Part shown: piece after piece, positions 11,962-54,938 of the stretch
Numbering within the stretch: the stretch's first letter is position 1
Layout of the letters: every line of letters begins with the position of its first letter
From: Alitta virens
Taxonomy: Eukaryota; Annelida; Polychaeta; Phyllodocida; Nereididae
Assembly (NCBI GenBank): GCA_932294295.1
Contig: OW028581.1
Location: 39,867,495 to 39,931,494 of the forward strand
Length of the DNA stretch: 64,000 bases
Direction: 5' to 3'
The notes under the pieces: generated by a model
What the model was told of the DNA's origin: nothing
Databases searched by the model: none
Seen by the model: the letters and a program-made list of their open reading frames with translations, nothing else
Position numbers and translations under genes: made by a program

Positions 11962-12324
11962 TGTTGCTCTTTCGATCCAGTGGTCGTTTCCAGATTCTAT
12001 CGAACTGTCACCCTAGCCCATTGCCAATAAAGGGTGTGATGTTTAATAGCGTGGAACATGCCTACCAATAGCGAAAAGCATTGTTCCATGACAGAAAAGA
12101 CATTGCTGCACGTATTATGCACTCTAGAGCACCACACCTGACCAAGCTAATTGCGAAGACCATCATCCAGTGTAAAGCATGGCATGAATGCAAAGCAGAC
12201 ATTATGTTTGAGATCCTAACTGTAAAAGCTAAGCAGTGTGTTGTGTTTCATAAAGCCCTTACTAGGTGCAAGTGGCTGATCCACTATACAGAAACAGACA
12301 CACAGCTTCTGGGGTTGTGGTGAA
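11962..12324 (+). pseudogene. NADAR domain fragment in LINE ORF1 (copy 1)
   Basis: One frame gives ILSNCHPSPLPIKG, then MFNSVEHAYQ, an in-frame TAG, then RKALFHDRKDIAARIM, IIQCKAWHECKADIMFEIL and KQCVVFHKALTRCK. This follows the NADAR (YbiA/DUF1768) pattern: LSNF/C block, Glu-His-x-Tyr-Gln followed by Lys-Ala, then a long helical half with KxWhxxK and Kf. Known NADARs bind ADP-ribose-related ligands and remove ADP-ribose from guanine in DNA. The stop after EHAYQ makes this copy a pseudogene. The C-terminal W-G-x-G block is lost or replaced. Confidence 0.75.
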
Positions 12325-12458
12325 GATTTTCAGGGTCAAACCAGCTCGGCAGCTCTCCGACAAAGAACTACCACAACCATTCGCAGATGTTCATCTACCT
12401 CGCCGCACATCTCACAGACCTTTGACTACAAAGAAAACACAGAACATCTCGCAAAGCA

Positions 12459-12950
12459 ATGCCAGTTGCACCTCCTGAACATCCAAAGGTTCTTGTGCTT
12501 GGAACTCCAATGCCAGAGGAGTTTCCCAAGGCCTTACCGACAGGGGTCTGGATGCTTGCAGTTTTACCCTGCCTGGTGGAACCATTTCCCATATCACCTC
12601 TAGAATTCGACACGTCAAGCCCACACAGGATCAGAACTGTGTGCTTCTCATGGCAGGGGACGTTGAGGCTGCTGACGGTCTCCCTGTTGAAACCATCTGC
12701 ACACGTTACAGGTACCTCTTGAAAGAAACTCGACGCACATTTCCCTGGTCGCAAATCATACTCTCTGGCCTCCTACAGACTGGACACAACTTCCACCAGA
12801 ACACTTTACGTAAGGTGAACAGCTACCTTGAGACCGTTGCCCAAGACAAGAGACTGTTTGAGTTTGTCTGCAATGTGCAAGCCAAACTCCATGACAGCAT
12901 TCACCTGTCTCATCCAGGAACAAACTGTTTAAATGTATCCTGTACTGTTA
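12459..12950 (+). pseudogene. SGNH/GDSL esterase-like domain fragment of LINE ORF1
   Basis: The first frame (from 12,459) gives PKVLVLGTPMPEEFPKAL, the position of the nucleophile block, where the usual GDS reads GTP. A second frame (12,641-12,940) gives VLLMAGDVEAADGL, FPWSQIILSGLL, LRKVNSYLETV and HDSIHLSHPGT. The last contains the Asp-x-x-His pair of block V. CR1-like LINE ORF1 proteins are known to carry such an esterase. A frameshift between the blocks and the missing nucleophile Ser show that this copy is inactive. Confidence 0.65.
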
Positions 12951-13039
12951 AGAAGATTTTTTCTATAAACTGGTTCCAGTCACAATTGTTAACTTTAAAT
13001 GTTCATGAACTGCAACTGTTACCATTATCAACATCTGTG

Positions 13040-13260
13040 AATAGTAATCTGAAAATGTTCGACACATATACTTTGCCGATAATAGAATGCAATAGTGAAA
13101 TATGGTCATGTGAATAATGAATTATAAAAGTTACAATTGTGGTACTTGAAGAATATGCTAGGGGTAAGAAAACAGACACCTTTGTGATTCATTTTATGTT
13201 GGAGTTGATAAACAGACAAACATAAATCCACCAGGGATTTGTAAACCGACAGATAAGTTG
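13040..13260 (+). pseudogene. LINE ORF2 extreme C-terminal fragment
   Basis: NLKMFDTYTLPIIECNSEIW followed, after stops and a frame change, by LWYLKNMLGVRKQTP. The same second motif appears as LGYLKNMLGVRRQTSS in the fragment at 38,073. It corresponds to the region after the RT in CR1/L2-like elements (LFD.LV.PIL.YGSEIWG and FCK.LLGV). Confidence 0.6.
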
Positions 13261-14975: not shown

Positions 14976-15070
14976 ATGGAAAGAAAAGACATAAATACCC
15001 AAACCACACCCGCAATAAACTCGAACCCAGGAAGAACCTTGATCCTTCAAAAGTCTGTGTCATCAACTGC

Positions 15071-15694
15071 ATGTTTGATGGAAAAACTACAGCAGCAGCC
15101 AGAACAGCAGGTCATGTGTCATGTTCTATTTGTTTTCATTGGTACCATAAAGATTGTGTAAACTTGCCAACTGATATTATTTCCTCCTGGCCCTGTCCAT
15201 CATGTAGAACATTAGCTGCTGAAGTTGACACCATTGATACAAGCCTCTTGCTCCCTGACCTGCTTCACCTCTCCGCAAATGGTGTCACAAAGTTAATCGC
15301 CAACCTCAGTTTGATAAATAAAACCAAACCCAGAGTTCACAGCAAACAGCCCAGCAGACCAACTGACAAACCCTGGCCCACACCAACAAGCATCCCAGCT
15401 CCACCACCCCTTATGTCGCTGACCCCGACCATGACCCTCACAGCCGTTCCACAGATCCCGACTCACTCTACTCTCCTGTACTTTGGCGGTGGCAACTCTG
15501 CTCTGAGTAACTTTTTCCAGACTCCTCTTTCCATGGAACATGAACTTCAGAAGCTCAGAGCACGCTTACCAGTACTACAAATGTGCCACTCAAGGCAACA
15601 GCACAGCAGCTACCAATGTCCTTCCAACAAACGATCGATGGAACGACATAAAGCAAGCAGCAGTCTCTCACCCAGTCACAGAATCGCCCGTTAA
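15071..15694 (+). pseudogene. LINE ORF1 with PHD finger and start of a NADAR domain
   Basis: A 207-codon stretch. About residues 15-55 form a PHD/RING-like zinc finger: VSCSICFHWYHKDCVNLP then SSWPCPSCRTL (C-x2-C, H-x2-C, C-x2-C visible). A long Pro/Thr-rich linker follows. Near residue 137, LYFGGGNSALSNFF begins a NADAR domain, after which a one-base frameshift diverts the frame. PHD-containing ORF1 proteins are established for CR1-like LINEs and are thought to bind nucleic acid or chromatin. The true start is uncertain; an upstream frame opens at 14,976. Confidence 0.7.
15475..15640 (+). pseudogene. NADAR domain fragment in LINE ORF1 (copy 2)
   Basis: Frame 1 gives YFGGGNSALSNFFQTPLSM. A +1 shift at about 15,535-15,542 then gives MNFRSSEHAYQYYKCATQGN. 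Together these are the two N-terminal signature blocks of NADAR: the Gly-x-x-x-x-Leu-Ser-Asn-Phe-Phe strand and the Ser-x-Glu-His-Ala-Tyr-Gln helix followed by Lys. The helical second half is missing (deletion into a Thr/Pro/Arg-rich stretch). Identification rests on both motifs appearing in order with the correct spacing. Confidence 0.75.
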
Positions 15695-15887
15695 TAAAAG
15701 ACACTACACATCCATACTGGTGCAGAGGCCACCAAGACAAGCGACTGAATATGTTAGGTAAGCTCCTCATGATGCTCCGCACGGAACTCGCAACATCATC
15801 AACAGCCGTGCACAACTTCACCCCTCGACCCGCTGTGACCCCTCCCAGAAACTGTCTCGAACACACAGAACCTAGATCAAGACATCA

Positions 15888-16010
15888 TTAGCTATGGTGT
15901 TATAACTGCGACAAAGTGTCCCACAACAAGCACACCTGTAGACACCAGGCCCTTTGCTGCTACTCCTGCAACAGCCTTTGCCACAATAAAAAGTTTTGTC
16001 TTCAAGCCCA
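15888..16010 (+). pseudogene. Tandem CCHC-like zinc knuckles of LINE ORF1
   Basis: Conceptual translation shows CYNCDKVSHNKHTC (C-x2-C-x4-H-x4-C) followed by CYSCNSLCHNKKFC with the same spacing. This is a double zinc knuckle typical of LINE and retroviral nucleic-acid-binding proteins. It lies after the NADAR remnant, so the ORF1 order was PHD, NADAR, knuckles. It is in a different frame from the NADAR piece and has stops around it. Confidence 0.65.
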
Positions 16011-16211: not shown

Positions 16212-16662
16212 GTGAGAGACACATATAATGAATATGTTGTTCCCACTACTAGTAACAATGTATCGAGTCATGTCTCAGATGCAACGGATAGCTCTTTTAA
16301 AAATTTCAGTGAAATTGATTTCCTAAATGATCTGGCCACAGCACCTTTCCACATTTCTCAAGTATTCGACGATGTTGACGATCAATTATGGTCACAGAAC
16401 TTTACTTTCAGAAATTATAAACAAAAATGCTTCAAGGAAACAAAGAGTAATTAAAAGTAATCAATTACCATACATGAATGACAATCTTAGAAAAGCTATA
16501 AAGGTAAAGGCAGCCCTTAGAAGGAAATTTAACCAAGTTAAAAGTCAAGAAAATTGGCATAAATACAGAAAGCAAAGAAACAAAGTAAACAAACTAAAGA
16601 AAACTGGAGGAAGGCCCTTGACAATAACTGCCATGTTGGCTGCATACTTATTGACTTTGTAA
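16212..16662 (+). pseudogene. LINE ORF2 endonuclease-RT linker fragments
   Basis: Two overlapping frames. 16,212-16,454 gives FSEIDFLNDLATAPF and SQVFDDVDDQLWSQNF; 16,327-16,662 gives LPYMNDNLRKAIKVKAAL and WHKYRKQRNKVNKLKK. Both match the region between endonuclease and RT in CR1-like ORF2 (F..DL..APW...fdd.dd..W, PWmt.elr.aI..R..l, W..yr..RN.v..l). A frameshift near 16,440 separates them. Confidence 0.75.
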
Positions 16663-16944
16663 AAATTTTGATAGCCTGCCTCATGGCCTACTAATTGCAA
16701 AGTTACATGCATATGGTTTATCACATGAAGCCTGTTCATTCATATTGGACTACTTAAAAAATAGAAATCAAATAGTAAAACTAGGTAATATTAAAAGTGA
16801 AAACTGGTGTTCCCGCAGATTTTCTCTTAGGTCCTCTCTTATTTAACATTTTCATAAATGATTTCTTTTTTAATTAAGTAGTTCTTGCAGCGTTTACAAT
16901 TATGCTGATGATGACACCTTATGCTATGCACACAGAGACCCAAT

Positions 16945-17776
16945 TGTGGTAGAGTGCGGTTTCTTCTTAGTCATTTGGGGAAAACTGAGCTTCACTTGCT
17001 TGGCGAGAGGCTTATTGTCCAGAACCGAACAGACCCCCTCTCAGGATGTAATACCTAAGAGACGGCTGAACAATACCATGCTCATTAGATCTCAGGTAAA
17101 CAAGGAATGAAGTAGACAAAGTCCAAAGATAAGATTCCAAAATGTATTTGTCAAAAATCCATGTCAAAAATTGGTATTGATACTGCTTGAGTTCTTCAAG
17201 ACATATTAGTCCCTACAGATTATCTTATCTCATGAGTGTGAGTTCATATGGCAGTTTAGATAGTCATTAAATCCGACTTGATATCAGTGAATCCATCACG
17301 ACAATTCAGTCAGTGATCAGAAGTCCTGGCTGATTCCTACAGTGAATTTTGAGTCTAGGATCAGAGATAGCTTTCTCTGACTTCTCTCTGTGTATCTCAG
17401 TCTACTGTGTGTCTCCAGCTGGCTGCTGTGTGTAAGGTGTTAATCTCTCTCTAGAGCTGGCTGCAGCCCCTTTTTACCCTAGTACCCTTGTGGGCCCTGA
17501 GGAAACGATCCTAGTGATAACTTTTAGAACTTATCAAAACTTCTACCAAATACTGGATTTCTCCACCTAGGGAGCAGTGTAGGAATCACTCCTAAATTTA
17601 GAAGCCAAACATCTCTGGATTTTGTTAGAGACTTAACAAAATCAACAGAACATACTGAACTCACTCACAAGTTTAAATGAATTTAGAATAAACAATATTT
17701 CAGAAGAATCTTGAAAACAACTGTTTAAAACAATTGATCATAAAATAACCTGGCACATAAACGTCACTACATGACA
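16945..17776 (-). repeat. LTR (3' LTR in element orientation)
   Basis: Starts TGTGGTAGAGTGCGG and ends CACTACATGACA on the plus strand, 832 bp. Same length and apparently the same sequence as 34,870-35,701. The purine-richer stretch ending ACAGGGCGGCA (minus-strand reading, 17,777-17,787) directly upstream is where the polypurine tract should lie, although it is a weak one. Confidence 0.97.
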
Positions 17777-18845
17777 TGCCGCCCTGTCAGAAAACAGTTC
17801 GTTTTACAAGATTTTTGATTCTTCAATTTCTTTTTATCGAAAAATTTCCGAATGTAGAACCTTAAATTTTGTCATAAGAAGCGCGCCACTCAAGCAATAC
17901 CAAAGATACAGATACAAAGTACAATAAAATCGATAATACAGGTAAATCATACAAATACAAAGAATCATAAAACATGCATAATACACTTGAGTTAATCACT
18001 CTGTTCATATATATATCTATATGAACCTGGGTACAATCCCATAGCAATGCATGGTTAAATATAAGAGGTACATGTATAGATGTAATACTTAGATATGAAT
18101 CAATGCAAGACGCAGACATTCCTTGAAGATAACAAGGTTGATGAGGGATGAAGTGCAAGTCTTGTCAGACCCGTAAAGAACAAGTGAAGTCATATCTTAG
18201 CAAATAAGCCATGCTAACATAAAAAATATGTGCCATAAAGCAATTAAATGTCACAGGACCAAAGTCAAGTTTGAAAGTCATTTCGATGAACTCGAATGAA
18301 CGTGTCACTTCAGTTTGAAAGTGTTCTTTCACAAAGTCTGAGTGAAAATCGAAGTCATTTTTCACATTGTTCACAGACATAATGTTTGTAATAAATCCAT
18401 TCGTAATCCGGAAATTCATCAAGATAATTCTTGGTCACTGAAACAATCTTACAAAAACAAATGTACATACATAAACAACATATCAATTACGAATTAATGA
18501 TTACATCAATACAAAATGAATTGATTTTCTTGTATAATATTTCAAAAACATTTAATTCATATATAATAATTATCAATACCTTTAGCAACGATTTACGTCT
18601 CTAAGTTATCAATGGAGTCAGTATACTAACATGCACTCCTAACTGATACATTTTAGCAAAAGCGTAGCTCGACTATCCCAATCAGCAATTATGCATGTAA
18701 CACATGCAAAAGACAATATAGCAAGATATGCCAATTACGTATACTTATATATCTATATATGATTATTCATGAAATACATCTAAATAAACCTAATTAGTCA
18801 CAAGAATCATGTTATTTGCCAAGTCAGAATGCACAATCCAGTTCT
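17777..18845. other. 3' non-coding region of the LTR element
   Basis: Between the envelope stop and the 3' LTR. Two small minus-strand ORFs occur (18,165-18,422, 85 codons; 17,862-18,158, 98 codons, hydrophobic C-terminus). Neither resembles a known family, and both are AT-rich like their surroundings, so I do not call them genes. Confidence 0.4.
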
Positions 18846-21800
18846 TTATACTTCAATAGGCTCACTTTCAGGAGCATTAGGTTTCCTAATAGGAGGACCA
18901 AGATAATTAACTTTGAATCCAGATGCCTGGCATTCAATTTCTTTCTGACGTAATTCCTCAATAAGGGCTGAATAAGGAGACATAATTTTCTCATCGGAAA
19001 TAACTTCATGAGTATCATTCGCCAAACGATAGAGATATAGGCCATCCGTAGCAATTATCTCACACATACATTCTTTCTTTACTATTTCCTGAAACTTCTT
19101 TCTCTTATAAAAAGCAATGGGAACCAATGATGGTAATTCTAACGATAAATGCCTTACTCTTAAAGCACAACTTCCGGCGTTCCAATTAGGTCGTAGAACA
19201 CTATACAAACGATGATTATCAACAATCAGATCAGAAACTTTCAAATTACCAGTAAAATGTAACTGAGCAATGGGAGCTTGAACAGTCATCACATACATTA
19301 GAACTCGGTCACATCCACTATGGATTTCAAGAAATATCTCAACTCTAGGGTGTTTTCTTAATTCTGGATGGGCCATAAGAACACGAGCCTCTCGAAAACA
19401 ATACGAAATCAATTGTTTACCACTATACAAAAGCATCACAACGATTATTGCAACGGCCATGTGAGATAAAGTTAAATAAAAATAAGACATTTTGCTTAAC
19501 TCAACAATGTTCCCACTTTGAAGTGTAGCCGCTTGAGCAACGTGAGGAGCTGACACAAACATCATAGATCGAACCATACCATTGGTAAACTGACCAAAAC
19601 AGCAAAAATAACAAGACATCAAGAGGGAAACAAGACCTAAAATTCCTCCTATAAAAGCTAAAGCTTTAGGCCATTGATTTCGAGTGAACCAAGCTTCAAA
19701 AGCAATATCAGCGGCAATCCTGTCCCATTCATCTTCAAATTTCTTTCCTTTATCATCAATTAATTGAGCCAAACGACGTAGTTGAATAGACCCAGTAGTG
19801 GTGTTCTTTAAACGAACTTCCCTAAGTTTCTGTAAAACCTTTAATTTGGGTAATTCGATAGGTTTATCAGTAGCTAAGACTTCATTAGGGTCAATAGGAG
19901 TCATCGTAATATTAGGAAAGGTTGTAGAAATCAGCGAATTAGCAACATAAGTCAACTGCAACGTAGGTTGTGGATTCAAAGCACAATTAGTTATTCGACG
20001 AGCTATGTGTCCATTCGTTGAAGTTATGCTACATTGGCACAGAGCAGAACGCTCAATGAGTGCGTATGGTGAACCGGTCAAATCTTTAGGAATTCTATCT
20101 TCCTGACATTGATATCTCCAAGGTTGATTAAGTCCACTGACAAGCAATTGTGAATCCAAATCAAGAATAGATGGCTCGGGCTTGAAAGGTTCAAAGAAAT
20201 AGGTGATATCACACTTATCAGCAATTATACTAGCTGAAGCATTCAAATATAAGGCTGTTAAACACGTTAATTCGATCTTATCCAATTCCAGAAAAGATTC
20301 ATAGCAATAATATGTATCACCGATCAATGCACATTTTTCCAACATTTCAGTATTCATTTCAATAAAATGCTCATTTTTCGCTACGCTCAAATATGGATGA
20401 GGAAGAGTAACTTTAGTATAATCATGATTAGAATCAGGAGAAACAAAAGTGGGATTAGTATTGACAGGAACATGAACCGACTGTACATGAAACAAACTAT
20501 ATTTAGGACTATTACGTGGAGTGATAGGCCAAATTAACTGAAGTAACAAACCTCTTTCCATAGGAACAAACACCACTTGAGATGAACTATAATATTCAGC
20601 AAGAGAAGTAAAAATCAGTTTATAGTCACGATGCCAACTAGACAAAGACTTTTCACATGAAGCTATGGCTTTCAGCATGCTAGATGGAGGAACCAATTTA
20701 GGAGAAATTCGTCCATGCTGTAGCTCATGAATGGACTGTAACAATTGATCTAACTCACCTATTAATTTATCATACTGACCTGCATGAGAATTCCACAATT
20801 GCAAATATCTAGAAGTAAGGACACTCAACACTCGAACTGCTTGAATTTTCTGTTGTAACATATTAAAACTTTTCTGTATATCTCCAAAGATAACTGACAT
20901 TTCTCGATTTGTATCATTCAGTAATTGAAATAAGGTGCGAATATTCGAAGTCGTGTTATCAAACTGATTGGCCAATAAATTAAAAGCCTTAGTAAGATCA
21001 TTACGAAGATCCAAATGACTTTCTTTCATAATATTTTGTCTTCCAGACAATATCTGTAACGCATACTTAAAAGCTCTAGATCGTTTCCTAGTCAAGGTAG
21101 CATGAACAGCAACACCAGCAGGAGGAATAAAGATACCAAGCCAAAAAGCTTTCTTATGATGAGAATCCCAAGACGAATCATTAAGCAAAGATGTAATATC
21201 ATTAGTCGTAGTCTGGGGAGACGGAGTTGTCGATCTTGTATATTCTCTTTTCTGTCTACTCTCTTCTCGAGGAGGTAAAAACAACTTACGAAAAGCGTTA
21301 GTAACTTCCGAAATTTGTGACTGAACTTTAGCTCTCAACTTTAACGAATGAGCCTTAGCATAAGCAATCAAAGGCTGAAAATCTGAACAAATAGCCTTAA
21401 TCAAACTGTCCTGAGAAGTACAAATTTGACCTAATGCGTCATCCATAAAATTCGCGTCAGGCAAATTAATTTCAGGCCAACTAACATGCATATGAATGAA
21501 ATAATTCTCAACTCCAGGATATAAATATTGAAATCTATCAAAACCAACTCCTAATTCTGGTCTGACAAAATTCTCTTTAGCATCATTGATGGAGGAAGCA
21601 GCCAAAGACAGTAACTGCTTGCGCTGCTCAGATAAATCAAGCTTAACATCTGAAACATCGAATAATTCAGGTTCTTTTATTACATCAGGTAATTGGTCCG
21701 AAGTTAGAGATCTACTGAGACGAGAAACTTGTTCAGGACCACACAATGTGACATTCAAATCAGAAAACCTTAAAGTATGATTATCACATCTTCCAGACAA

Positions 21801-25501: not shown

Positions 25502-25549
25502 TATTCTGATAATAATTAACTTCCGAATTTCCAAAAATAACGTATACAA

Positions 25550-29864: not shown

Positions 29865-29900
29865 AACTCTTTCCGTTTCTCCTTTCTCATTCTTTTGTAA

Positions 29901-44148: not shown

Positions 44149-44369
44149 AGGCCCCATTTAACCCCATAATTCCCATGCGGGACTCCCATTTGGGAATTGC
44201 AGGACTTAGAGGACTTACAGGAAATGCTGGAATTAGATAGGAATTGAAGGATCTCATGGGACCCATATGGAGATAGGGGAGTTATTAAGGATGTAAAGGA
44301 ATTGCAGGACTTATTGGGCATCACAGGGACTTATTGATCTAACAGAGATTATTTAGGACTTGGTGGAAT

Positions 44370-44760
44370 TATTGAGGACATACGGGAATTATGGGGACTC
44401 AGAAGGGCTTCTAGGGAATTGCAGAATTATTCAGGACTTACGGGAATTATGGGGACCCAGAAGGGCTTATCAGGAATTGCGGAATTATTCAGGACTTACG
44501 GGAATTATGGGGACCCAGAAGGGCTTCTAGGGAATAGCAGAATTATTCAGGACTTACGGGAATTATGGGGACTCAGAAGGGCTTATCAGGAATTGCGGAA
44601 TTATTCAGGACTTATGGGAATTATGGGACTTACAGTGGCTTATTGGGAATTGTGGTACACCACGGGGACTTATGGGATTTAAGGTGATTATGTAGAATTT
44701 TTCGGAACTTGTAAGGATATAAGGGAAATATAAACCACTATGGGACCTCGAAGGAGCTAG
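44370..44760 (+). repeat. Left subterminal tandem repeats of the TIR element
   Basis: About five units of roughly 57 bp: ACTTACGGGAATTATGGGGA, CCCAGAAGGGCTT, AGGAATTGCGGAATTATTCA. The core GGACTTA-GGGAATTATGGG also makes up the right-hand array. The open frames running through it are periodic artefacts. Confidence 0.85.
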
Positions 44761-45541
44761 AGCTTGGAATAGTCGGACTCGTGGCTTTTATGGGAATTAG
44801 CTAATTCTATTCCAGATACATCTTCAACACAATAACGTGAATTTGCCAATAATATAGCTCACACGTTTAATACAAAAAATCAATTGTTGGCTCAGATTTA
44901 GCAAGCCTGGCATGAACACCCAATTACTAGTTAGTACACAGGGGTCACTAACCTCGTGATATAGACTTTCTCATAAAGTGTAATGCATGTAGGGTATTGA
45001 TCCCGAGACGTTAAGTTGCCAGGCTTCATACAAGCCAATGGCATTGGCTAAAGGCCCCTTCACACATAGCCGGATTAGACACCGGAGCGTCCCGGAATGA
45101 AATTTCTTCAATCCAGGGTGGTCCAGGCGAAAAAGTTGGAAATGTCAACTAACGAAAAATTTGGCTGTGTGGACACGATGGCAAGACGTTGGCGACAAGG
45201 AGCAACACGGCTATTACACGGATGTATACGGTCGCTACACGGATATGTACGGTTGAAACATGGCGGTACACAGAGGTGTCCGGTGCACCAAAGAACGAGC
45301 CATGGTTGTTGCCGGAAGTAACACGGATGTCCCGGATGAGTGCGGAGTGAACCGGATGTTACATGGGGCCTTCACGGATATACACGATCTGTACACGATC
45401 GTATTGCTGAGTTAACCTGTCTTCTCCCGGAACGCGCTAAAATTGGTATTTAAGGTGGATGCGTTCCACTGGCCATCATTCCACTTCGGACTACCATACT
45501 GCAAAGGTGTTGCTGCTACTACACAAGAATAGATAATTATT

Positions 45542-46894
45542 ATGTCTTTATCACACTACGACAAGGTGGAATTGGATGTGAAGTACCTGGACATGCAAGT
45601 CCAGCTACTTACTGCTGCAAATGATATACTTCTGCAAGAAGAACAGAAACAGCAGAACGCTGCAGAGAGGGCCGCATCAACAACTGATGAAGATGACTTC
45701 TTACAAAATGCTGGTGCTGCCCGAAGAAGAAGGTGAATGTGGGTGCGACCTTGGCTTCTAAGAAGACCTCTTTATGGGCAGTATGAAAAGCTGATGGCTG
45801 AATTGACTGCAGAAGATGTGGGTGGCTTCTAGAATTTCATGAGGATGGAGCCTGACTTATTTCATGAAGTTCTGGCAAGAGTGGGACCTAGGATTACAAA
45901 GCAGGATACTTTTCGGAGGAGGGCCCTTGAACCTGGACTGAAACTGGCTATTACCTTGTGCTACCTGGGTACGGGCAACAGCTACATGTCTCTGCAGTAT
46001 GGATTCAGGGTAGCCTTCAATACCATTTCTATCCTTGTCATCGAAGTCTGCCAGGCCATCATAGAAGAGTACTCAGCAGAAGTAATGCGTTGTCCTGTAA
46101 CCCCAGAAGCCTGGAAAGAAGTTGCCAATGGATTCTACAACAGATGGAACTTCCCCCACGGCATCGGCGCCATTGATGGCAAGCACGTTGCCATCAGATG
46201 TCCCAGGAAGTCTGGATCCCTGTTCTACAACTACAAGGGATTTTTCTCTATTGTCCTACTGGCTGTAGTTGATGCTGAATACAAGTTCCTCTATGTTGAC
46301 ATTGGTGCCAGTGGATCAGGCTCAGATGCTGGAGTGTTTAGTCAGACAGAATTGAAGGAAGCGCTAGAAAGTGGGAACATTGGATTACCTGAACCAGACA
46401 AACTGCCAAATGATGACCAGCCAGTGCCTTACTTCATAGTTGGGGATGATGCCTTTGGACTGCAGACTTGGATGATGAAGCCTCTGCCTCACAGGAACAT
46501 GACGATGGAAGACCGAATCTTCAACTACAGACTTTCTAGAGCTAGACGGGTGGTAGAGAATGCCTTTGGACTTTTGGCTGCCAGGTTCAGGTGTCTCCTC
46601 ACAACAATGCCTCAAAGTCCTGACAGAGTGTGCACCATAACTCTTGCTTGCTGTGTGCTGCACAACCTACTGAGGCTGAAGTATCCAACTGCTCAAGTGA
46701 ATGCTGTGGACCAGGAAAATGCAGACATCCATGCGATCATCCCAGGTGCATGGAGGGAGAATGTCAATCTACCAGACATGGGAGATGTGTACAGAGGCAA
46801 CACCAACAGAGCAGGCAAGGAAATGCGGCAATACTTGGTCAACTACGTCAACTCAGAAGCTGGGAGTGTACCATGGCAACAAGACAAGATTTGA
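45542..46894 (+). pseudogene. PIF/Harbinger transposase (DDE_Tnp_4) with two in-frame stops
   Basis: One frame runs from 45,542 to 46,894. It is interrupted by TGA at 45,734-45,736 and TAG at 45,830-45,832, with WVRPWLLRRPLYGQYEKLMA between them. The catalytic domain is intact: FPHGIGAIDGKHVAI (first Asp), YFIVGDDAFGL (second Asp), SRARRVVENAFGLLAARF (Glu), and a helix-turn-helix-like N-terminus (TKQDTFRRRALEPGLKLAIT, LGTGNSYMSLQYGF). It would cut and paste Harbinger DNA together with the Myb-like partner. The stops make this copy inactive, although the 351-codon catalytic part is still open from 45,839. Confidence 0.9.
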
Positions 46895-47008
46895 AAACAA
46901 CACGAATGATGTAAGTTTGAACATTTAATTATTACGAAACCTCAGACATCTGCAGCACACAAGTGCAAAAAAGTACACAGCATTTAATGACACAGCATTT
47001 AGTTATTG

Positions 47009-48770
47009 TCATGCAAATGTATACAATACCCCCACACTAGTGTTCAGCAAGTAGCTGGTGAGAGAAGCATCCTGAGGCGTGCTGCAATCAAGGGGTGACA
47101 TGGAAGGACGACCGTGCGAAGGACATGCAGTCAACCATGCCTGACTGATGATCGTCGAAGATATCTCAGGAGTGGGGGTCGGTGCAGGCACAGACGAAGG
47201 GGCAGACGACATGTGCGCTTGGGGCGAAGGGCCGGATGCAGTAGCGAACATCTGGGCAGCAGGGCTGGAAGAATGCGCGAACATCTGGGCAGCAGGGCTG
47301 AAAGAATGACGAGGGAACATCTGCCGAACAGGGGCGGTCGAAGTGCCTGTAGTAGGGACGAACTGCTGCTGCTGAGGGACATGAGGGACATGAGGCACAT
47401 AGGGATGATACTGCTGTTGCTGTTGCAGTTGCTGTTGCTGCTGCAACTGGCGCTTTCGACGATACTCCTGCTTGAATTGCATGAGGTGCTGCAATGCTTG
47501 GGCCTGGTAATTCGACCAAGTGTCCGTGTCCATTTGCATGACCTCGTGGTATATCATGTCTGTGAAAACCCTGTTCGACAAGCTGGCTGAGTCAGTCGGC
47601 TGACTCATCTTGGTCTGGATATCCCGCTGGAGATCGGTGGCCTTTTCGATCAGCGGGAAATAGGAAAGAACAGAACATTAGAGTAAGTCACATGACAACT
47701 GCAGCAGCATGTGCATTATTGACAATGTAATGAAAAAGACACATCACCATACGGTGAACACTGGAAGTGCCAAGAAACAAAGCTACCACTTGCTACTATG
47801 GAAAAGCTACAACTTTTAACTGCAAGATTACAATTACAAATTTACACTACAAGATTACGATTACATTCTCCTGATTATCACGACAACTGCAGCAGTATAC
47901 TTACTTGAGTGACAGCTTGTGTAGCATCCACCTCCACTACCTGCAAGGCTGAATGCATCACAGTCATGATGATGACGAGGCTCGTGATGGCGTCTTGACG
48001 TCTTCTTGGTTGGAGGAGGGGCCCCCTTCCTGCTGCTGCCCTTGTAAGGCCCACCCTTGGATCTGCTAGTATTCGAATCTCTGCCACCATCATCCGAAGT
48101 ATCCACAATGACCTCCGCATCAGAAGTGTCATCATCCTCAGTGGTACCTCTGGTTGATGCGCTTTTTGCCGATAAACTGGGAAAGCTGCCCACTTTCTCT
48201 TCCATTTCCCAGCGTCAACCCTCTTGATGTGCCTCTCCAGATACCCTAAATTTTCCATTATCCAGTTGTCCCAGTCTGTGAGGATTCTGGCGGCCCCACC
48301 AGAAGGCTTCTTGCTTGGATCAGTAAGCTTCCCCACTGATGTCCGCATGGAGTCGTCCACGTCTTCAGCTGCTGGGATGTGCACGACAGCTCTTTCGCCT
48401 TCTGGTCGATTATTCGCGATTTAATGTCTATCCGCTTGTATTGTGCAAGCCGCCGGTTGTAGAGCATCTCCTGGGCACGGTACCAGTCAGCCACATCTTG
48501 TTCCTGGTCTTCTGTCAGGTTCAAGGGTTCTTTTTTGTGCCTTTTCGCTTTTGCTGTAGGTGGTGGTGGAGCTGCAGCAGCTGCAGTTGTAGCAGGTACC
48601 TCAGCAGCAGCAGGTACAACTGGCCCAGGTAAATCAGGCATGCCTTGTGGACTTTGCGGTCTTGAAACTGTAGAGGTATTACTTCCTGCATCTTCTCCAA
48701 CAGCAGGTCCAGCTTCCTCTTGCACGACAGTCTTCTTGGTAGCCCTCCCTTTTCCTCTCCTAGGTGGCAT
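47009..48770 (-). pseudogene. Harbinger MADF/Myb-like DNA-binding protein, two exons, frameshifted
   Basis: Minus strand. Exon 1 starts at 48,770 (MPPRRGKGRATKKTV) with an Ala/Pro linker and the MADF-like helices LNLTEDQEQDVADWYRAQEM, NRRLAQYKRIDIKSR and, after a shift near 48,360, MRTSVGKLTDPSKKPSG and WIMENLGYLERHIKRV. A Ser/Asp-rich part follows in a third frame. A GTAAGTAT donor lies at 47,905 and an AG acceptor at 47,642. Exon 2 (47,641-47,009) encodes ATDLQRDIQTKMSQPTD, a poly-Gln stretch and a Pro/Ser-rich tail. This protein brings the transposase to the TIRs. At least two frameshifts suggest decay. Confidence 0.75.
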
Positions 48771-48899
48771 GGTGGTTATTCAAAGCAACGGCAGTAGTAC
48801 CAAGGCTTTGGTAGAGTTCAGCAATCCAGAAGAAGTGAGCGATAATGCAATTAATTCGATGATCAACGATGAACAGCATGCGCCAGAATGATGCTTCCC

Positions 48900-48925
48900 C
48901 CAAGATGGCGGTGCTATATATACGA
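48900..48925 (-). promoter_or_regulatory. Candidate promoter of the Harbinger Myb-like gene
   Basis: On the minus strand, TATATATAGC (about 48,922-48,913) is followed by CACCGCCATCTTGG (48,912-48,899), a TATA box and a YY1-type site, about 130-150 bp upstream of the ATG at 48,770. The spacing fits a core promoter; function is inferred. Confidence 0.45.
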
Positions 48926-49230
48926 AGACATCCGTACTCACTCTGTGTCAGTCTATTTGACACCGTGTTGACACCTTGTTCACTCCGGCCTCTCCGTATT
49001 GACTTAGTGTGACACCGTGTACCTAACAGGGTTACCGGGGTCAAGCAATTGACCCGTAACCCTCTCTCCTTGTTGACTCCGTGTTGCCACGTGTTCACCC
49101 GTGTGGAACCGCGTTGCTCCTTGTACTCTCCGGCGTGGAATTTTTACACGCGGTTGACGCCGGACTTAAGCGGAGAGATCAAACAAAGTATTCTGGAGTC
49201 AATATGGGGATTCCCGGAGATCGGCGGAGT

Positions 49231-51459
49231 CTACTGGGAGTCTACACGGAGCAACACGGATGAAATTATGATATCAGTAGCCTTGCGTGAAGGCCTTGTG
49301 CCTTGCTTGAGATGGGCACATGTACTTCGTAAGTCGCGGCATTCAGACTGTAGGGACAGCCATGTTGAACGGGTGGTGAATGGTGCTTTCGCGACCCCTG
49401 ATAAGACATCCTCTGGGGAAATGCGGAGGACTGTCGCATTTGAGGTCATCTTGATGAAGGAACAGATTTGGCACTGGGGGCCCTGACAGGACAGGGCATT
49501 GCGACTGGCAAAATCAGAGGGGAGATTTGATGTGCCAGCAAGATGGCGGACGGCAACATGGTATCGGGCAACCGTGGACAAGAATGTGGTTATGCGAGGA
49601 CTGGCAGAGAACTCTCCTCGGAGTAGGCGGTCATATGCTTGGGCACAAGGTTTGCTCTCTGTCAGTATTTGAACAGGGTGGTCGGACTGCACGATGTATG
49701 GGCTAAATTGTTTAGTGGCCGACGAAATGGCTAATGCCTCTACTTCACACGGCAGCCATTTTTCTTGGTTGGGCCGTAGTTTAGCACTGAAGAATCCAGA
49801 CAGACAGACTTTTGAGTTGCGCACGACGTACATGGTGGCGCCTATGCCTGGGTCACGGACGGCACCATCTGTGATTATCCAGAGTTGATCAGATGCACGG
49901 GGGAGGGTGATGGTCTGATAGGACTGGAGAGACACTTGGGCATTCTTGAAATGGGCAATGTTTTCGTCAGACCATGTGATGCGATCGGAGGATTGGGCAC
50001 CGGCAACCAAGGAATCGAGCGGAGAAAGCACACGAGCACCACCAGGAATTACCTTTGATAGTGCCTTAAAGGCACCTATGAAGGATCGTAGGCCTTTGAC
50101 AGTTTTCGGGGGATCGCATGTAGATAACGTGGTGACCCGGTGTGGGCTTGCGCTAAGTGTGCCTTGTTGCCATATCCAGCCCAGCATAGATGTGGACTTT
50201 GGGCAAACCACAGTTTTGGCAGGTGAGAGTTTAAGGCCTGCTTTCTGGATGCAAGTGAGCAATTTTGTCCAATTTATGAGTAATTGTTCGGGTGTATCAA
50301 CGCCACAATAGAGATCGTCAGCTAATTTAGCAACGATGCCTTCTTGGAGGAGATCACCGAGGACTCGGCACATGAGCTCCTCAAGTGCCGTTTCAGAACC
50401 TGGCATGCCCATGGCACATCTTGCGTATGTGCGTATGCCTCGGTATGGAGTGGCAACACCACAAAACTTGAGGGATGCCTTGGACAAGGGAATCTGATAG
50501 AAGGCGCTTGTGAGGTCAGTAGCTACTATATACGACCACTGTGAAATCTGACAAAGTGTGGACTCTACGTCGGGCATCAGGGATGGTTGGGGTTTGCTAT
50601 ACTGGCCCACTTCGCCAAATGCAGTGACTAGGCGCGTTCCACCATTAGGTTTGTTAATGAGGAAGGAGGGGTTGACGTATTCCACGGTAATGTCAGCAGA
50701 TTCTGGTTTGATGAGTATCGCAGCTTGTTCAAGCTCGTCGAACTTAGTCTGTAGTTCGTTCAGTCTGGACGTGTTGTATTGGGGAAGTCGGCCTTTTCTT
50801 TGTGGGGGCAGGACTGGGCCCATGTTTACAACAGCTTGGTAAGGGCCGTAGGAATCGAACACATCTGAGAATTGGTCAAGCATAGATCCGAAACTTTGCC
50901 TCGTAGAGGGGTGGAGGATGTTGGCGGGATCAATGGAGACTAGGGATACCCTGGATGCGTTGGCGGTACGAGCGGTTGATGGGGGATGGTCCCGGGGTTG
51001 GGTTGGGGAAGGGGGGCTATACACAGGGAGAATTTGGCAGAAGTGGTCATGACGATGCAGGATCCTGGGGTAATTGCCATTGTTGGGTATGCGGATGTTG
51101 CGGGAGACACTTGACACAATGGAGGGGCGAGGCCAAGTGTGGGACGGATGGGCGTCACGATTACTGGGGCTGTCAATACGGGGTTCGAGGGCGAACATTT
51201 CATCTCCATTACAGTAGTCTGGCGGTACAGGGATCTCGACATAGTCGCCTTGCCATATTGTGCGAGTGTCTGGGGCTCGTATTACACATGCACGGCGAGC
51301 AGTGGGACTTGTGTTGGTGGTGGAGCCATACGGATATGTGGAGCTTCCGATGCGAACTTCTCTTGTCGATGGGCGGGCATACACATCATTGCACTCCATG
51401 AATGGGGTGCCTGCCAGTAGTGGGACATCTAGATGTTGGACCACCAGAGCATGAAACAT
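49231..51459 (-). CDS. Pol fragment: protease end, RT and RNase H of the second gypsy element, 742 codons
   Basis: Begins with the end of the protease (HLDVPLLAGTPFMECNDV). RT blocks: YVNPSFLINKPNGGTRLV, YIVATDLTSAFYQIPLS, YARCAMGMPGSETALEEL and the catalytic box IVAKLADDLYCGVD (Ala-Asp-Asp). RNase H follows with WIITDGAVRDPGIGATMY, CEVEALAISSATKQF, ILTESKPCAQAYDRL and HLAGTSNLPSDFASRN. The ORF then runs out in foreign (Harbinger) sequence. Without integrase this copy cannot move on its own. Otherwise it is remarkably intact for a truncated element, so the truncation is recent. Confidence 0.88.
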   Translation of the reverse strand: MFHALVVQHLDVPLLAGTPFMECNDVYARPSTREVRIGSSTYPYGSTTNTSPTARRACVIRAPDTRTIWQGDYVEIPVPPDYCNGDEMFALEPRIDSPSNRDAHPSHTWPRPSIVSSVSRNIRIPNNGNYPRILHRHDHFCQILPVYSPPSPTQPRDHPPSTARTANASRVSLVSIDPANILHPSTRQSFGSMLDQFSDVFDSYGPYQAVVNMGPVLPPQRKGRLPQYNTSRLNELQTKFDELEQAAILIKPESADITVEYVNPSFLINKPNGGTRLVTAFGEVGQYSKPQPSLMPDVESTLCQISQWSYIVATDLTSAFYQIPLSKASLKFCGVATPYRGIRTYARCAMGMPGSETALEELMCRVLGDLLQEGIVAKLADDLYCGVDTPEQLLINWTKLLTCIQKAGLKLSPAKTVVCPKSTSMLGWIWQQGTLSASPHRVTTLSTCDPPKTVKGLRSFIGAFKALSKVIPGGARVLSPLDSLVAGAQSSDRITWSDENIAHFKNAQVSLQSYQTITLPRASDQLWIITDGAVRDPGIGATMYVVRNSKVCLSGFFSAKLRPNQEKWLPCEVEALAISSATKQFSPYIVQSDHPVQILTESKPCAQAYDRLLRGEFSASPRITTFLSTVARYHVAVRHLAGTSNLPSDFASRNALSCQGPQCQICSFIKMTSNATVLRISPEDVLSGVAKAPFTTRSTWLSLQSECRDLRSTCAHLKQGTRPSRKATDIIISSVLLRVDSQ

Positions 51460-53000
51460 AAGGTTGTGATGGTCACGGTGACCGTAAACTTTTTTTCGCC
51501 AACAACGTTCAACTTGGACACTCTGTCTGCCTGACCGGCAGATTGGCTACTGGAAGTGAGTTTGACACCTAACCAATCAGCGGCTGCTTTGCTGATAAGG
51601 TTGGCCGTGGCACCATTGTCGATGACGATACGTGGTGTTTTGTGTTCAAAGTAGGTGTCAAGATATGGGGACTGGCGCACAAGGACACGACGAATGGATG
51701 TGTCTTTGGGGGTGGGGAATGTGAATGTTGTTGTTATTTCATCGTCTTGTTCGAAGTCTTCACTGTTCGTATCATCTAGCACCTCAGCGATGAGGCGTGC
51801 TCGAGTCATGAATCGTCGATCTTGATCGGGTAGGTATGTGCACTCGCTCAGGAAATGATTGTCTGGTCGGTTGGTGCTTTTGCATAAGGGGCATGACTTC
51901 GGCTTACGCTGGGGCATAGGATGGCTGGGTCTGCGAAATGGGGTCTGTTTACCTTTTGTTGTTTCAGATCTCATTGCTCTGACTTCCCCTGTGGTCTGAA
52001 TTTCTTCGATTAGGGACTGTAGTGCCTGTGAAATTTCTGGTTTGATCGGCGCCAATGTCCTGAAACGTAGCTCTGTCCCATACTTTTGTTTCACAACCTT
52101 TGGGAGATCTCGATGGATTAGGCACAGCCACATAAACACTATGGTATTTTCCACAGTGGGGGAGAGTTCTTCGTCTGTGGTAGGTCTCTCACCACAATGT
52201 GTAATGCCACCATCTTTTAATAACAAATTGTCTTCGAAGAATGCAGCTAACCTTTGGTATAGATCTTCGTAACGTTCTCCATCTTCTAGTTTAATGTCAA
52301 CTAAGTCTAGGAAGTGAGCCCCTGATGATTGGAAACCATAGTGTGTTCGTATAGCCTGCCAAATGATGTCCAGTGATGTCGCTTTCTTAGTGATGGTGTT
52401 GCGTGCGATGACTGGGCAGTAATTTGCTATCTGTCCCAGAAAAAGATCCAGAAACTTACATTTTTGCTCAGCGGTTAGTCTTTTTGCTTCTGGTACTGCT
52501 TCACCATCTGATTGGAGGCCTCTGACGGCGTCCTCTGTTGTCTTTTTCCATGTAAATCCAGGGGCCATGAATGGTACAAAGTGGGAGTCGAGAGCTAGGC
52601 AATAGAGTAAGTTTTGTTTCCATGCCTCGAAGCTGGTAACAGTCTCTTGCTTTGTAAGAGCCCATTGTTTGGGAGCCCGGTTGCTTGTTGCCATTGCAAG
52701 CACGTGGTTGTTTTGGCTGGTCCCAAGCTGTACGATGCCGGCGGGCGACGCTACTTCTTGCGCCTCGCTTTGTTTATGGAAAGTTCTCCTTGTTGTAGAC
52801 GTGGATATCGTTTCTCCGCTGCCACCACGCCAATAAGATGAACAACAAAGCGATCGGATGTCAGAACTTTAATCCAAAACAACACACTGCCATGGACAGG
52901 AACCGGAAACAACTCTATGTAAAACATGTCACTATACAACTAACCATAGGCTTTGTAACGCCGTGGCGTAGTAGTGGGTGGAGTGACTTATTCTGAATGA
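49269..53000 (-). mobile_element. Ty3/gypsy-like LTR element fragment lacking the integrase
   Basis: Gag plus protease frame (52,703-51,429) and RT/RNase H frame (51,459-49,231) on the minus strand. Homology ends abruptly near 49,269 just after RNase H, at the start of the linker to the integrase (HLKQGTRPSRKATDI), where Harbinger-type sequence begins. The 5' end lies right of 52,703; CGTTTCTCCGCTGCCACCA at 52,809-52,827 could be a primer binding site (CCA end), but no LTR pair is present. Confidence 0.85.
51429..52703 (-). CDS. Gag and N-terminal protease of the second gypsy element, 424 codons
   Basis: The gag part starts MLAMATSNRAPKQWALTK, with capsid-like helices (FEAWKQNLLYCLALDSHF, DIIWQAIRTHYGFQ, YEDLYQRLAAFFEDNLL). 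A zinc-knuckle variant, CPLCKSTNRPDNHFLSEC, is near residue 265. The protease follows with RIVIDNGATANLIS, so the active-site triad reads Asp-Asn-Gly rather than Asp-Ser/Thr-Gly, as in some invertebrate gypsy groups. The frame ends inside the protease and the next frame overlaps by 30 nt, so a frameshift (mutational or programmed) is needed for Gag-Pol. Confidence 0.82.
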   Translation of the reverse strand: MLAMATSNRAPKQWALTKQETVTSFEAWKQNLLYCLALDSHFVPFMAPGFTWKKTTEDAVRGLQSDGEAVPEAKRLTAEQKCKFLDLFLGQIANYCPVIARNTITKKATSLDIIWQAIRTHYGFQSSGAHFLDLVDIKLEDGERYEDLYQRLAAFFEDNLLLKDGGITHCGERPTTDEELSPTVENTIVFMWLCLIHRDLPKVVKQKYGTELRFRTLAPIKPEISQALQSLIEEIQTTGEVRAMRSETTKGKQTPFRRPSHPMPQRKPKSCPLCKSTNRPDNHFLSECTYLPDQDRRFMTRARLIAEVLDDTNSEDFEQDDEITTTFTFPTPKDTSIRRVLVRQSPYLDTYFEHKTPRIVIDNGATANLISKAAADWLGVKLTSSSQSAGQADRVSKLNVVGEKKFTVTVTITTLCFMLWWSNI

Positions 53001-53921
53001 AGTGCCAGTGGCATCAGGAGCCCCAATAAGTACCAAGTTTTTGGCGTTCACCTATGACATCGCTACTCACAGATGAATGCCTAACATACCATGAAGTAGG
53101 AAACTCTATGCAGAACCATCAAGTGTTACAGGAAAACTGGATCAAAACCCCCAATGGTCCAGCACATAAAAAATGTTATTTAATGCCACCAAATTATAAT
53201 CAGAAACCTAACAATATTTTTTTCATTCAGCCAAATTAACTTTAAGTATCCTATCTATCTATTCTTTGTGGCAAGGTTGACAACCCAGCTTGGTGGACGC
53301 ACACTCCAGTAATACAAAGGTTTCTACCTCATTGATAACATTATGGTGCGCTTTTTCAAGATATCTTGCAAGAGTTTGGTTATAAGTACTGCCAGCTTGA
53401 GCTATTATGATTGCTATTGGTTAAAGGCATAGTTTATGAAGTTATTGCAGTCAAAAGCAGTCACAAAAATTAAAAGTGATCATTAGCTGGAAGACTCATA
53501 AAAGTGATCATGAGCTGGCAGAATTCATAAAGCCTTTGAGTCTGTATTTCCCCAGCTGGATGTCCTTTCCAGTCTCTGAAAGATCTCTATGTCAATACTA
53601 CTCGAAATTAAGAGATAAAAGTTATTTCATATCTAACCTATGTTTAATTTAATTAACTTGTTACACCATATTTTCCTTCTTCAAATACTTAAATAACTGC
53701 TGCAATATATATTTTAGTGAATCTGCCTAATTACTATATATATGTAAATGGAAATTGACAGGACTATTAAACTTGTGAGGAGTTACAACGATGCTCTGAT
53801 TGTATTAGGAATTATGCAATGATTATGGTACTTGGATGGAGTTAATGAATGGTCTAGATTTATTAGGTATTATGGGCATCATCAGTATTAACAGGTACCT
53901 ATAGGAACCAGTCCTAACCAT
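53001..53921. other. Unique AT-rich stretch inside the TIR element
   Basis: No supported ORF, RNA or repeat apart from a partial direct repeat of TAAAAGTGATCATNAGCTGG near 53,475-53,520. It probably belongs to the body of the AGGCCCC element or the unresolved end of the gypsy fragment. Confidence 0.4.
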
Positions 53922-54240
53922 GAGGACTTATTGGGAAATATGAGAACCACGAGGACTTATTGGGAATTATGGGAACCACGAGGACTTATTGGGAATAATG
54001 GGAACCACGAGGACTTATTGGGAAATATGGGAACCAAGAGGACTTATTGGGAATATTGGGAACCAAGAGGACTTATTGGAAATTATGGGAACCACAAGGA
54101 CTTATTGGGAATCATGGGGACCACAAGGACTTATTGGGAATTATCGGAACCACTAGGACTTATTGGGAATTATGGGAACCACGAGGACTTATTGGTAATT
54201 ATGGGAACCACGAGGACTTATTGAGAATTATTAGGAAATA
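53922..54240 (+). repeat. Right subterminal 29-bp tandem repeats of the TIR element
   Basis: About eleven directly adjacent 29-bp units, GAGGACTTATTGGGAATTAT followed by GGGAACCAC, with single-base variants. There are no spacers. Because 29 bp is not a multiple of three, three units equal 29 codons, which produces long repetitive open frames that are not genes. Confidence 0.92.
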
Positions 54241-54334
54241 TGGGAATTATCAGGGACTTCCAGGAATTGGTAGAAATTGTTGGGAGTTATGGGAATAATT
54301 GGAGTTGCGGGAATTATGGGGTTAAATGGGGCCT

Positions 54335-54938
54335 ATTGAGTGAAGACTTTCCTTCTGAGATAAACTCCAGAAGAAGAATTCTCTACCCAATAATGAAATC
54401 GGCAAAGAACGACAATAAACGTTGTAGGCTTATTGGGGATAAACTAGAAATTGAAGGCAAAGTTCTCTCTGTGAAGACCTTACACACGCTTCCGGAAAGG
54501 TATAATCCAGCAAATATTGCAACTATTACGAAAAATAACGTGACTGCCTTTTTCTCCAAAGCCTCACCTCTGTCAAACTTCTCTCAATGTGACCTGAACA
54601 TTGGAGGACGTATTTACTCCAGTGTTGAACAACATTTCCAAGAGCAAAGAGCCATTTTTGGTGGCAGTCCTGAAGCTGCAACTGAAATCCGTGCTGCACT
54701 GGACCCAGCAAGATGTAAGAAGCTTGGTGAACAAGTCAATGTAGACGAACGTAGATGGCTTGTTGAAGCAATGAGAGTGATGAGAACGGCATGCTTGGCA
54801 AAATTCACCCAAAATCCCACTGCAAAACAGTTCCTTCTGAAAACTGGGGATAATGAATTAGCCGAAGCAGGCCCCAATAAAACATGGGGTGTTGGGCTAA
54901 GGCTTGACAATCCCCAAGTTCACAATAAAACTGAATGA
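54335..54938 (+). CDS. C-terminal part of LINE ORF1p fused to an intact NADAR domain
   Basis: First ~60 codons: the ORF1p C-terminal domain (LSEDFPSEINSRRRILYPIM, then RLIGDKLEIEGKVL), which continues the RRM at 44,148 in frame. Then NADAR: VTAFFSKASPLSNFSQCDL, IYSSVEQHFQEQRAIFGG, DPARCKKLGEQVNVDERRWL, MRTACLAKFTQNPTAKQFLL and AEAGPNKTWGVGLRLDN. The block order, the Glu of the SVEQ helix, the Kf/n pattern and the terminal W-G-x-G are those of the YbiA/DUF1768 family, which hydrolyses N-glycosidic ADP-ribose links. No stop or frameshift occurs here. The domain is about the full family length (~140-150 aa). In an uninterrupted copy it would be the C-terminus of the RNA-binding ORF1p. Confidence 0.88.

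Follow-up and report, generated by a model that had tools for sequence, protein, structure and literature searches.

NADAR domains as a module of LINE ORF1 proteins, with a possible role in the removal of guanine ADP-ribosylation

The functions of ORF1 proteins are still poorly understood. In the window, i.e. the whole stretch of 64,000 nucleotides that was analysed, three NADAR domains lie within three LINE ORF1 remnants (A, B and C), which raises the question of whether NADAR is an established part of such proteins, and what it might do there.

NADAR domains in three ORF1 remnants

The first-pass annotation had claimed NADAR at three sites, and the domain was found at all of them, by Pfam in C and A, and by colinear profile segments together with tblastn of a relative, P0039, in B. 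The check that it proposed against Pfam NADAR (PF08719) was positive for copy C (piece 54,225-54,935; E=1.9e-24) and for copy A (E=2.6e-10 as a single piece with X at one stop, and E=2.1e-13 as a composite with the frames joined), and negative for the window copy of B, where the composite reached only E=0.012, under the Pfam cutoff, and two short pieces scanned singly with Pfam gave no score. Our own NADAR profile matched a read-through chunk of A with E=3.4e-16. At B, profile segments 23-56 (E=0.012) and 97-152 (E=0.021) were found as separate, colinear fragments at 15,479-15,789, with a third segment, 3-22, at only E 2.5-3.1 in read-through chunks; P0039, itself a Pfam NADAR protein (E=6.8e-25), aligned piecewise over 15,026-16,008 with tblastn E-values of 2.8e-29 to 4.3e-38. 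Chance matches were ruled out with the reversed window as a control, in which neither the NADAR profile (E up to 5) nor protein queries (E up to 0.01) found a match.

The ORF1 of LINE C is split into an N-terminal half with coiled coil and RRM at 43,511-44,148 (forward strand; tblastn of P0001 residues 1-182, E=2e-48) and a C-terminal half with CTD and NADAR (54,540-54,995) at 54,335-54,998 (forward strand). Between them, at 44,149-54,334, lies a DNA transposon of 10,186 bp (~10.2 kb; listed without strand) with perfect 26-bp inverted ends and a 6-bp duplication, ATTGAG. As these features coincide exactly with the break, the interruption is an insertion, and an intron-split gene was ruled out. 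The joined ORF1 frame matches P0001 at 53% over 399 columns, gap-free at the junction. The interval 54,335-54,938, previously described as fully open, is therefore the second half of a transposon-interrupted ORF1, and it is not fully open, because the in-frame stop at 54,936-54,938 precedes a conserved tail that continues in frame to 54,995. An endonuclease-RT ORF with an in-frame stop at 58,488-58,490 (55,950-59,066, forward strand; Pfam RVT_1 6e-29, Exo_endo_phos 2.6e-8) follows 0.95 kb downstream of ORF1 on the same strand and is probably the ORF2 of LINE C. We regard this union as probable rather than proved because the GC content differs between the ORF1 halves (0.37, 0.43) and ORF2 (0.31). 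Around LINE C, a search for target duplications was negative.

Compared with solved chains, the profile of the L1-type set matched NADAR 8bau (3e-33), YbiA (4e-24) and LINE-1 ORF1p (1e-11). In a Foldseek search with the AlphaFold model of P0001, an L1-type relative (pLDDT 93.8, pTM 0.70), all 12 matches at E<=0.001 were NADAR/YbiA or LINE-1 ORF1p, the best being 8bau (3.4e-9) and human LINE-1 ORF1p 2yko (7.5e-8). By profile and predicted fold, the L1-type NADAR ORF1s are classed as Type II ORF1 (coiled coil, RRM, CTD). A Pfam transposase_22 match was listed neither for the window pieces nor for six relatives (P0001, P0003, P0009, P0014, P0017, P0018).

The remnant of LINE A (11,762-12,967, forward strand) has the order coiled coil-NADAR-esterase. 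Its coiled-coil segment was placed at 11,762-11,908 by tblastn of relatives, e.g. P0041 (156-204), in frame 2; the NADAR at 11,940-12,386, found by the Pfam composite, tblastn and our own profile, is chiefly in frame 3, with 12,295-12,357 in frame 1, and contains internal stops and frameshifts; and the remnant of an SGNH-type esterase at 12,365-12,967 was located by tblastn to P0041-P0049. With Pfam alone this esterase is under the cutoff, and among seven type A rows scanned with Pfam it was below cutoff in four and absent in three. GNSN and a (D/E)xxH-like motif occur in 9/9 type A relatives. The two B relatives matched Pfam Lipase_GDSL_2 with 1e-11 and 6e-12. On sequence, type A and B proteins are assigned an SGNH esterase akin to that of LINE ORF1 proteins (type IV ORF1). 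The AlphaFold model of type A was middling (pLDDT 72.6, pTM 0.42).

In the LINE B remnant (15,026-16,008, forward strand), a PHD-finger-like region at 15,026-15,235 (Pfam PHD E=1.4e-4, just under cutoff; 70% identity to P0039) is followed by the tail of a mostly deleted esterase at 15,227-15,340, end approximate (the alignment begins at P0039 residue 289, in the C-terminus of the esterase), by the N-block and C-block of a NADAR whose middle is deleted, at 15,479-15,792 (frames 2, 3, 1; tblastn to P0039/P0040), and by two CCHC zinc knuckles at 15,898-16,008 (the alignment with P0039 extends to its residue 583). Of the PHD-NADAR-CCHC architecture read earlier, the NADAR stands, albeit internally deleted; the adjacency of PHD and NADAR does not, being a deletion product, as the esterase lies between the two in P0039 and P0040. 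Pfam PHD scored P0039 at 5.5e-5, below cutoff, and was not listed for P0040, although the latter aligns with P0039 in that region. P0039 further matched retroviral nucleocapsid chains (E=1.8e-4); Pfam zf-CCHC was not listed for it at E 0.01.

Downstream, a decayed RT piece of LINE B ORF2 at 16,655-16,944 (forward strand) was detected by tblastn of the window's ORF2 (16,655-16,847, E=2.5e-4), with no endonuclease found ahead of it. It is interrupted by an LTR retroelement on the reverse strand (16,945-35,701; self-blast and ends), which has 832-bp identical LTRs and a target duplication, CAAT. The frame continues across the junction into the C-terminal RT part at 35,702-36,387 (forward strand), which resembles a different LINE within the window (E=1.6e-8). 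The joined RT piece gave no Pfam match.

Conservation, ADP-ribose-site residues and number of captures

Open-frame database relatives comprised 14 with an L1-type N-terminus, nine of type A and two of type B, and those retaining an open-frame NADAR are 34-61% identical to copy C and 41-46% to A. Domain identities were computed from 13 of the 20 L1-type rows, 9 of the 10 A rows and one B pair. Mean identity in the L1-type was 0.41 for NADAR, 0.34 for RRM, 0.44 for CTD and 0.21 for the coiled coil; in type A it was 0.65 for NADAR, 0.64 for the esterase and 0.21 for the linker. Judged by these identities, the conservation of NADAR is about equal to that of the core domains. With three architectures and conservation in relatives, the proposal of a recurrent ORF1 module is borne out, and NADAR is very probably an established module in the ORF1 proteins of several LINEs. 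Searches of viral contigs with P0001, A5, A6, P0018, P0017 and P0044 found no relative; the query A4 found three bacterial loci (genome contigs) and two viral loci, apparently stand-alone NADARs in every case. An Rfam search gave no match.

Residues equivalent to E43, K50 and E125 of 8bau were scored in 32 LINE rows. The E43 equivalent is Glu in 32/32, and the K50 equivalent is Lys in 25/32, Arg in 5/32 (copy C and four other L1-type rows) and Leu in 2/32 (both L1-type). By group, the L1-type has E43 in 20/20, Lys or Arg at K50 in 18/20 and E125 in 20/20; type A has E43 and K50 in 10/10 each, with His at the E125 position in 9/10 and Ile in the decayed window composite; type B has each of the three in 2/2. 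The LINE NADARs would thus be placed in the NADAR superfamily by its E43/K50 criterion, and the last-strand Glu of the YbiA subfamily (E125) is kept in the L1-type and B, not in type A. His in place of the YbiA Glu has been described in the gp30.3 NADARs of phages (PMC11125620). For the E. coli C7 NADAR, the K50-equivalent Lys is described as essential, the Arg mutant being active in vitro with cell rescue lost (PMC11543638).

A tree was calculated from 52 rows, leaving out the fragments P0020, P0030 and P0031, as well as L003 and the internally deleted B copy of the window; four of the five stand-alone NADAR loci found with A4, without L003, served as outgroups. In it, the NADARs of A and B group as a single clade (98/90) that excludes the L1-type ones. 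A topology uniting all LINE rows was rejected with no more than moderate significance (p values of 0.043 and 0.021; for the second topology test eight further rows were dropped, leaving 44). Since the A and B domains are sister to each other, the sequences point to two captures as likely; three captures were rejected, and the three contexts, earlier called independent, more likely represent two.

Possible role and alternatives

NADARs reverse guanosine ADP-ribosylation in DNA and RNA (PMC11543638, PMC11833690), and a guanine-N2 ADP-ribosylating activity is reported from six edible clams (PMC11209040). The ORF1 protein would be expected to coat the RNA of its own element through coiled coil and RRM/CTD, or through PHD/CCHC; the tethered NADAR could cut the ADP-ribose-guanine bond in LINE RNA or nascent cDNA, and marks set by a host guanine ADP-ribosyltransferase, possibly a CARP-1-like enzyme if the host were a bivalve, would then not block translation or reverse transcription. 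Taken whole, the statement that NADAR is a standing ORF1 module and a hydrolase of guanine-ADP-ribose that removes host marks from LINE RNA or cDNA falls somewhat short of an even chance; guanine-ADP-ribose as substrate and relief of host marks as purpose are tentative, at best evenly balanced. The wider proposition, that LINEs acquired an ADP-ribose eraser for their RNA-coating protein on two or more occasions, that it then moved among PHD, esterase and zinc-knuckle settings, and that it serves as a counter-defence against guanine ADP-ribosylation of retrotransposon RNA or cDNA, is doubtful. The earlier proposal of reversing host PARP-mediated ADP-ribosylation has become less likely: PARP-made marks are unlikely substrates because, in published assays, the E. 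coli C7 NADAR did not act on RNA with phosphate-end ADP-ribosylation (PMC11833690) and the activity of bacterial NADARs towards RNA carrying PARP10-made uracil marks was negligible or absent (PMC13036486), whereas guanosine ADP-ribose in RNA was a substrate of the NADARs assayed (PMC11833690). All three window copies are broken; this, Arg or Leu at the K50 position and the type A His count against the preferred explanation, guanine-ADP-ribose hydrolysis.

That NADAR serves housekeeping, with the element's RNA or the ADP-ribose by-products left by repair or RNA processing as its target instead of a defence mark, is rather unlikely. We know of no RNA-processing-type ADP-ribose substrate on LINE RNA. 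The inactivity of the C7 NADAR on phosphate-end marks likewise argues against housekeeping, yet the only authors found to discuss NADARs of transposable elements, in a paper on Ectocarpus, propose processing of RNA intermediates, not defence, for them (PMC12477816), which also speaks against the preferred explanation. Nematode SNA-3, on which SL1 trans-splicing depends, contains three NADAR domains and is impaired when conserved residues in two of them are mutated (PMC9303266). The conserved ADP-ribose pocket would also suit a reader that guides the ORF1 complex to insertion sites at DNA breaks or in ADP-ribosylated chromatin, and the His of type A and the Leu seen twice in the L1-type might reduce catalysis yet leave binding intact; the last-strand Glu in 20/20 L1-type and 2/2 type B rows, however, is more than binding alone seems to require, and we consider binding without catalysis unlikely.

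It is very unlikely that the type A protein is a host gene or the protein of another element: seven RT/EN queries from the window found no RT beside A, but, NADAR apart, the solved structure closest to it is the ORF1 esterase of the zebrafish LINE ZfL2-1 (4c1b, E=3.3e-5, profile of A relatives), and its NADAR groups as sister to the NADAR of B, a remnant with an RT piece downstream. The decay of all three window copies would fit a NADAR acquired by chance and without role, but relatives sharing 34-61% identity with C and 41-46% with A keep it open, it is conserved nearly as well as the core domains, and two captures are likely, which leaves passive capture very improbable.

An enzyme domain of known chemistry whose conservation is close to that of the RNA-binding core, and which LINEs probably captured on two or more occasions, offers a direct biochemical test of part of ORF1 function. 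Nucleic-acid ADP-ribosylation may be an axis of conflict between animals and retrotransposons; if the counter-defence reading is true, host defence by guanine ADP-ribosylation would, to our knowledge, itself be new.

Comparison with known systems

NADAR was reported in 2025 in the Tx1 LINE ORF1 of Crassostrea gigas and in an Ectocarpus Gypsy Pol (PMC12477816). The former likewise has a YbiA-family NADAR in a LINE ORF1, and the L1-type architecture described here is probably of the same kind; the Tx1 account is brief, and the sections consulted mention neither a NADAR next to an esterase, PHD or CCHC nor a second capture, and give no residue counts or model. For esterase-linked NADAR ORF1 forms, no description was found in the literature searched. 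Human LINE-1 ORF1p (2yko, Type II) shares coiled coil, RRM and CTD, the C-terminal NADAR being extra here. The CR1/L2 ORF1s with esterase and PHD (PMC4120745) and ZfL2-1 (4c1b, PMC3905857) have in common with types A and B an SGNH-type esterase and a coiled coil, PHD and CCHC being optional; relative to these proteins as described, NADAR is placed before the esterase in A and after it in B. DarT1-associated NADAR antitoxins and YbiA (8bau, 2b3w) share the fold and most ADP-ribose-site residues, but the DarT1-associated NADAR is paired with a toxin, whereas here the domain is fused to a retrotransposon protein. The NADARs of animal RNA virus polyproteins (PMC9503650) likewise join a selfish RNA genome or intermediate to a putative ADP-ribose eraser, located, according to that source, in the replication polyprotein, and here in the retrotransposon ORF1.

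NADAR in the window and an L1-type ORF1 split by a transposon

The presence of NADAR at three window sites, claimed in the first-pass annotation, was borne out by Pfam scores for LINE A and LINE C and by alignment of the database relative P0039 for LINE B. The scores were 1.9e-24 (E) for LINE C, at 54,225-54,935, and 2.1e-13 for a composite sequence of LINE A, the 12-kb copy. For LINE B, the 15.5-kb copy, the composite stayed under the Pfam cutoff (0.012), but it was matched by two colinear profile pieces (0.012 and 0.021) and, piecewise by tblastn, by P0039 across PHD, NADAR and CCHC (E 2.8e-29 to 4.3e-38). The reversed window, used as a control, gave zero matches for NADAR profile or protein queries.

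P0001, a database protein of 400 residues, matches the window twice, with residues 1-182 at 43,625-44,146 and residues 182-399 at 54,336-54,989. The element between the two ORF1 halves (44,149-54,334) is bounded by inverted ends that match perfectly over 26 bp, and a 6-bp duplication reads ATTGAG. The joined flanks form a single frame with one stop short of its end, and this frame matches P0001 at 53% across 399 columns with the sole alignment gap distant from the junction. The LINE C ORF1, coiled coil-RRM-CTD-NADAR, is therefore interrupted by a DNA transposon. Its NADAR part had been described as fully open; a stop at 54,936-54,938 lies upstream of a conserved in-frame tail. The 122-residue database protein P0020 covers 37% of the query at 100% identity and continues into the tail; as judged from this protein, a near-identical copy lacking the 54,936 stop exists. 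Downstream of ORF1 follows an EN-RT ORF with one stop (55,950-59,066, +).

The 10.2-kb transposon (44,149-54,334) contains a DDE_Tnp_4 transposase ORF at 45,833-46,894 and, on the minus strand, an RT/RNase H ORF at 49,234-51,546; minisatellites with 29- and 58-bp units, ~71% alike, lie just within both ends (53,916-54,231 and 44,366-44,652). Elsewhere, decayed LINE remnants occupy the minus strand at 3,969-6,364 and 42,103-42,785, with segments that share 30-43% identity with the ORF2 at 55,950 or among themselves, and a host-like ORF at 9,041-9,571 (+) encodes a KY-type Ig-like domain (E=2.8e-11).

Relatives and number of captures

Searches for relatives gave 7 matches among 386 candidates, at least 36 among 8000 scored and 11 among 6479. 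From sequences and alignment A2, an L1-type N-terminus with NADAR was found in 14 proteins (P0001, P0003, P0008-P0019), with the NADAR C-terminus shortened or altered in P0018 and P0019; P0002 and P0004-P0007, which are shorter, were assigned to this group on similarity. NADAR is conserved about as well as RRM, CTD or esterase, and better than coiled coil or linkers. NADAR has been reported in Tx1 ORF1 of Crassostrea gigas and in Gypsy of Ectocarpus (PMC12477816), the sole relevant paper on retrotransposon NADARs among the matches listed, with most subscription papers outside scope; the word is absent from the main text of a 2014 survey of Jockey-superfamily ORF1 (PMC4120745).

In a NADAR tree of 52 rows, including type A (10), type B (2), L1-type and outgroup rows, A and B group together (support 98/90), and a 100/99 branch has A and B with 9 outgroup rows on one side and the L1-type rows on the other. 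Constraining all LINE rows together was 25 log units worse (p=0.043 with 52 rows, 0.021 with 44), a moderate rejection of a single clade of all LINE NADARs; one clade of L1-type rows was not rejected (p=0.55). The loop following WGxG is 11-12 residues long in 18 of the 20 L1-type rows, the two exceptions being the truncated P0018 with 8 and the altered P0019 with 16, whereas it is a single residue in all 12 A and B rows; among outgroup NADARs it is long in some and short in others. Tree, constraint tests and loop make two captures by LINEs likely, in place of the three independent contexts first proposed, and given two captures, A and B differ in module order.

Fold, ADP-ribose-site residues and possible role

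The L1-type profile matched NADAR 8bau, YbiA and LINE-1 ORF1p in the PDB, and the AlphaFold model of P0001 (pLDDT 93.8, pTM 0.70) gave 12 Foldseek matches at E<=0.001, every one NADAR/YbiA or LINE-1 ORF1p. With site residues numbered on 8bau, the E43 equivalent is E in 32/32 LINE rows, the K50 equivalent K in 25, R in 5 and Leu in 2 (Arg in the LINE C copy), and the E125 equivalent E in 22, His in 9 and Ile in the decayed window A composite. For E. coli C7 NADAR (PMC11543638), Ala at the E43 equivalent is reported to have a minor effect in vitro and Gln to be inactivating, with cells rescued by neither Ala nor a close substitute; the K50 equivalent is essential, its Arg mutant being active in vitro without cell rescue.

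NADARs strip ADP-ribose off guanine in DNA and RNA (PMC11543638, PMC11833690). The C7 enzyme is inactive on RNA ADP-ribosylated at phosphate ends (PMC11833690), and bacterial NADARs have no or negligible activity against uracil marks made by PARP10 (PMC13036486); guanine-N2 ADP-ribosylating activity was detected in six edible clams (PMC11209040). A guanine eraser tethered to RNA-coating ORF1p would, as we infer its purpose, shield or restore the RNA or cDNA of the element. A role of NADAR in housekeeping or RNA processing is a less likely reading, and its use as an ADP-ribose reader is slightly less likely still.

Module order in LINE B and LINE A

Window LINE B holds a PHD-like region, an esterase tail, both NADAR ends and two CCHC knuckles. 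In P0039 and P0040 a PHD-like region is followed by a coiled coil or linker and then by esterase, NADAR and two CCHC, with NADAR and esterase above Pfam cutoffs, PHD not reaching its cutoff, and CCHC assigned on PDB nucleocapsid matches. Decayed RT 3' of this ORF1 is interrupted by an LTR retroelement at 16,945-35,701 (-) with identical 832-bp LTRs and a CAAT duplication, and resumes beyond it. The retroelement holds gag-pol domains and an extra ORF at 18,849-23,402 (1,518 residues). This ORF encodes leucine-rich repeats (E 5e-10) and also has a coronavirus-spike-S2 match (0.0065, below cutoff); its product is possibly an LRR-fused envelope-like protein.

LINE A ORF1 (coiled coil, NADAR, esterase) lies at 11,762-12,967 and contains stops and frameshifts; no RT was found next to it with seven RT/EN queries from the window. 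Its nine type A relatives (340-586 residues) carry NADAR and then an esterase-like part, the shortest, P0045, beginning at NADAR. By Pfam the esterase is below cutoff in four of the seven rows scanned and absent in three. The best non-NADAR match of the relatives' profile to solved chains was 4c1b (3.3e-5), the ORF1 esterase of the zebrafish LINE ZfL2-1 (PMC3905857).
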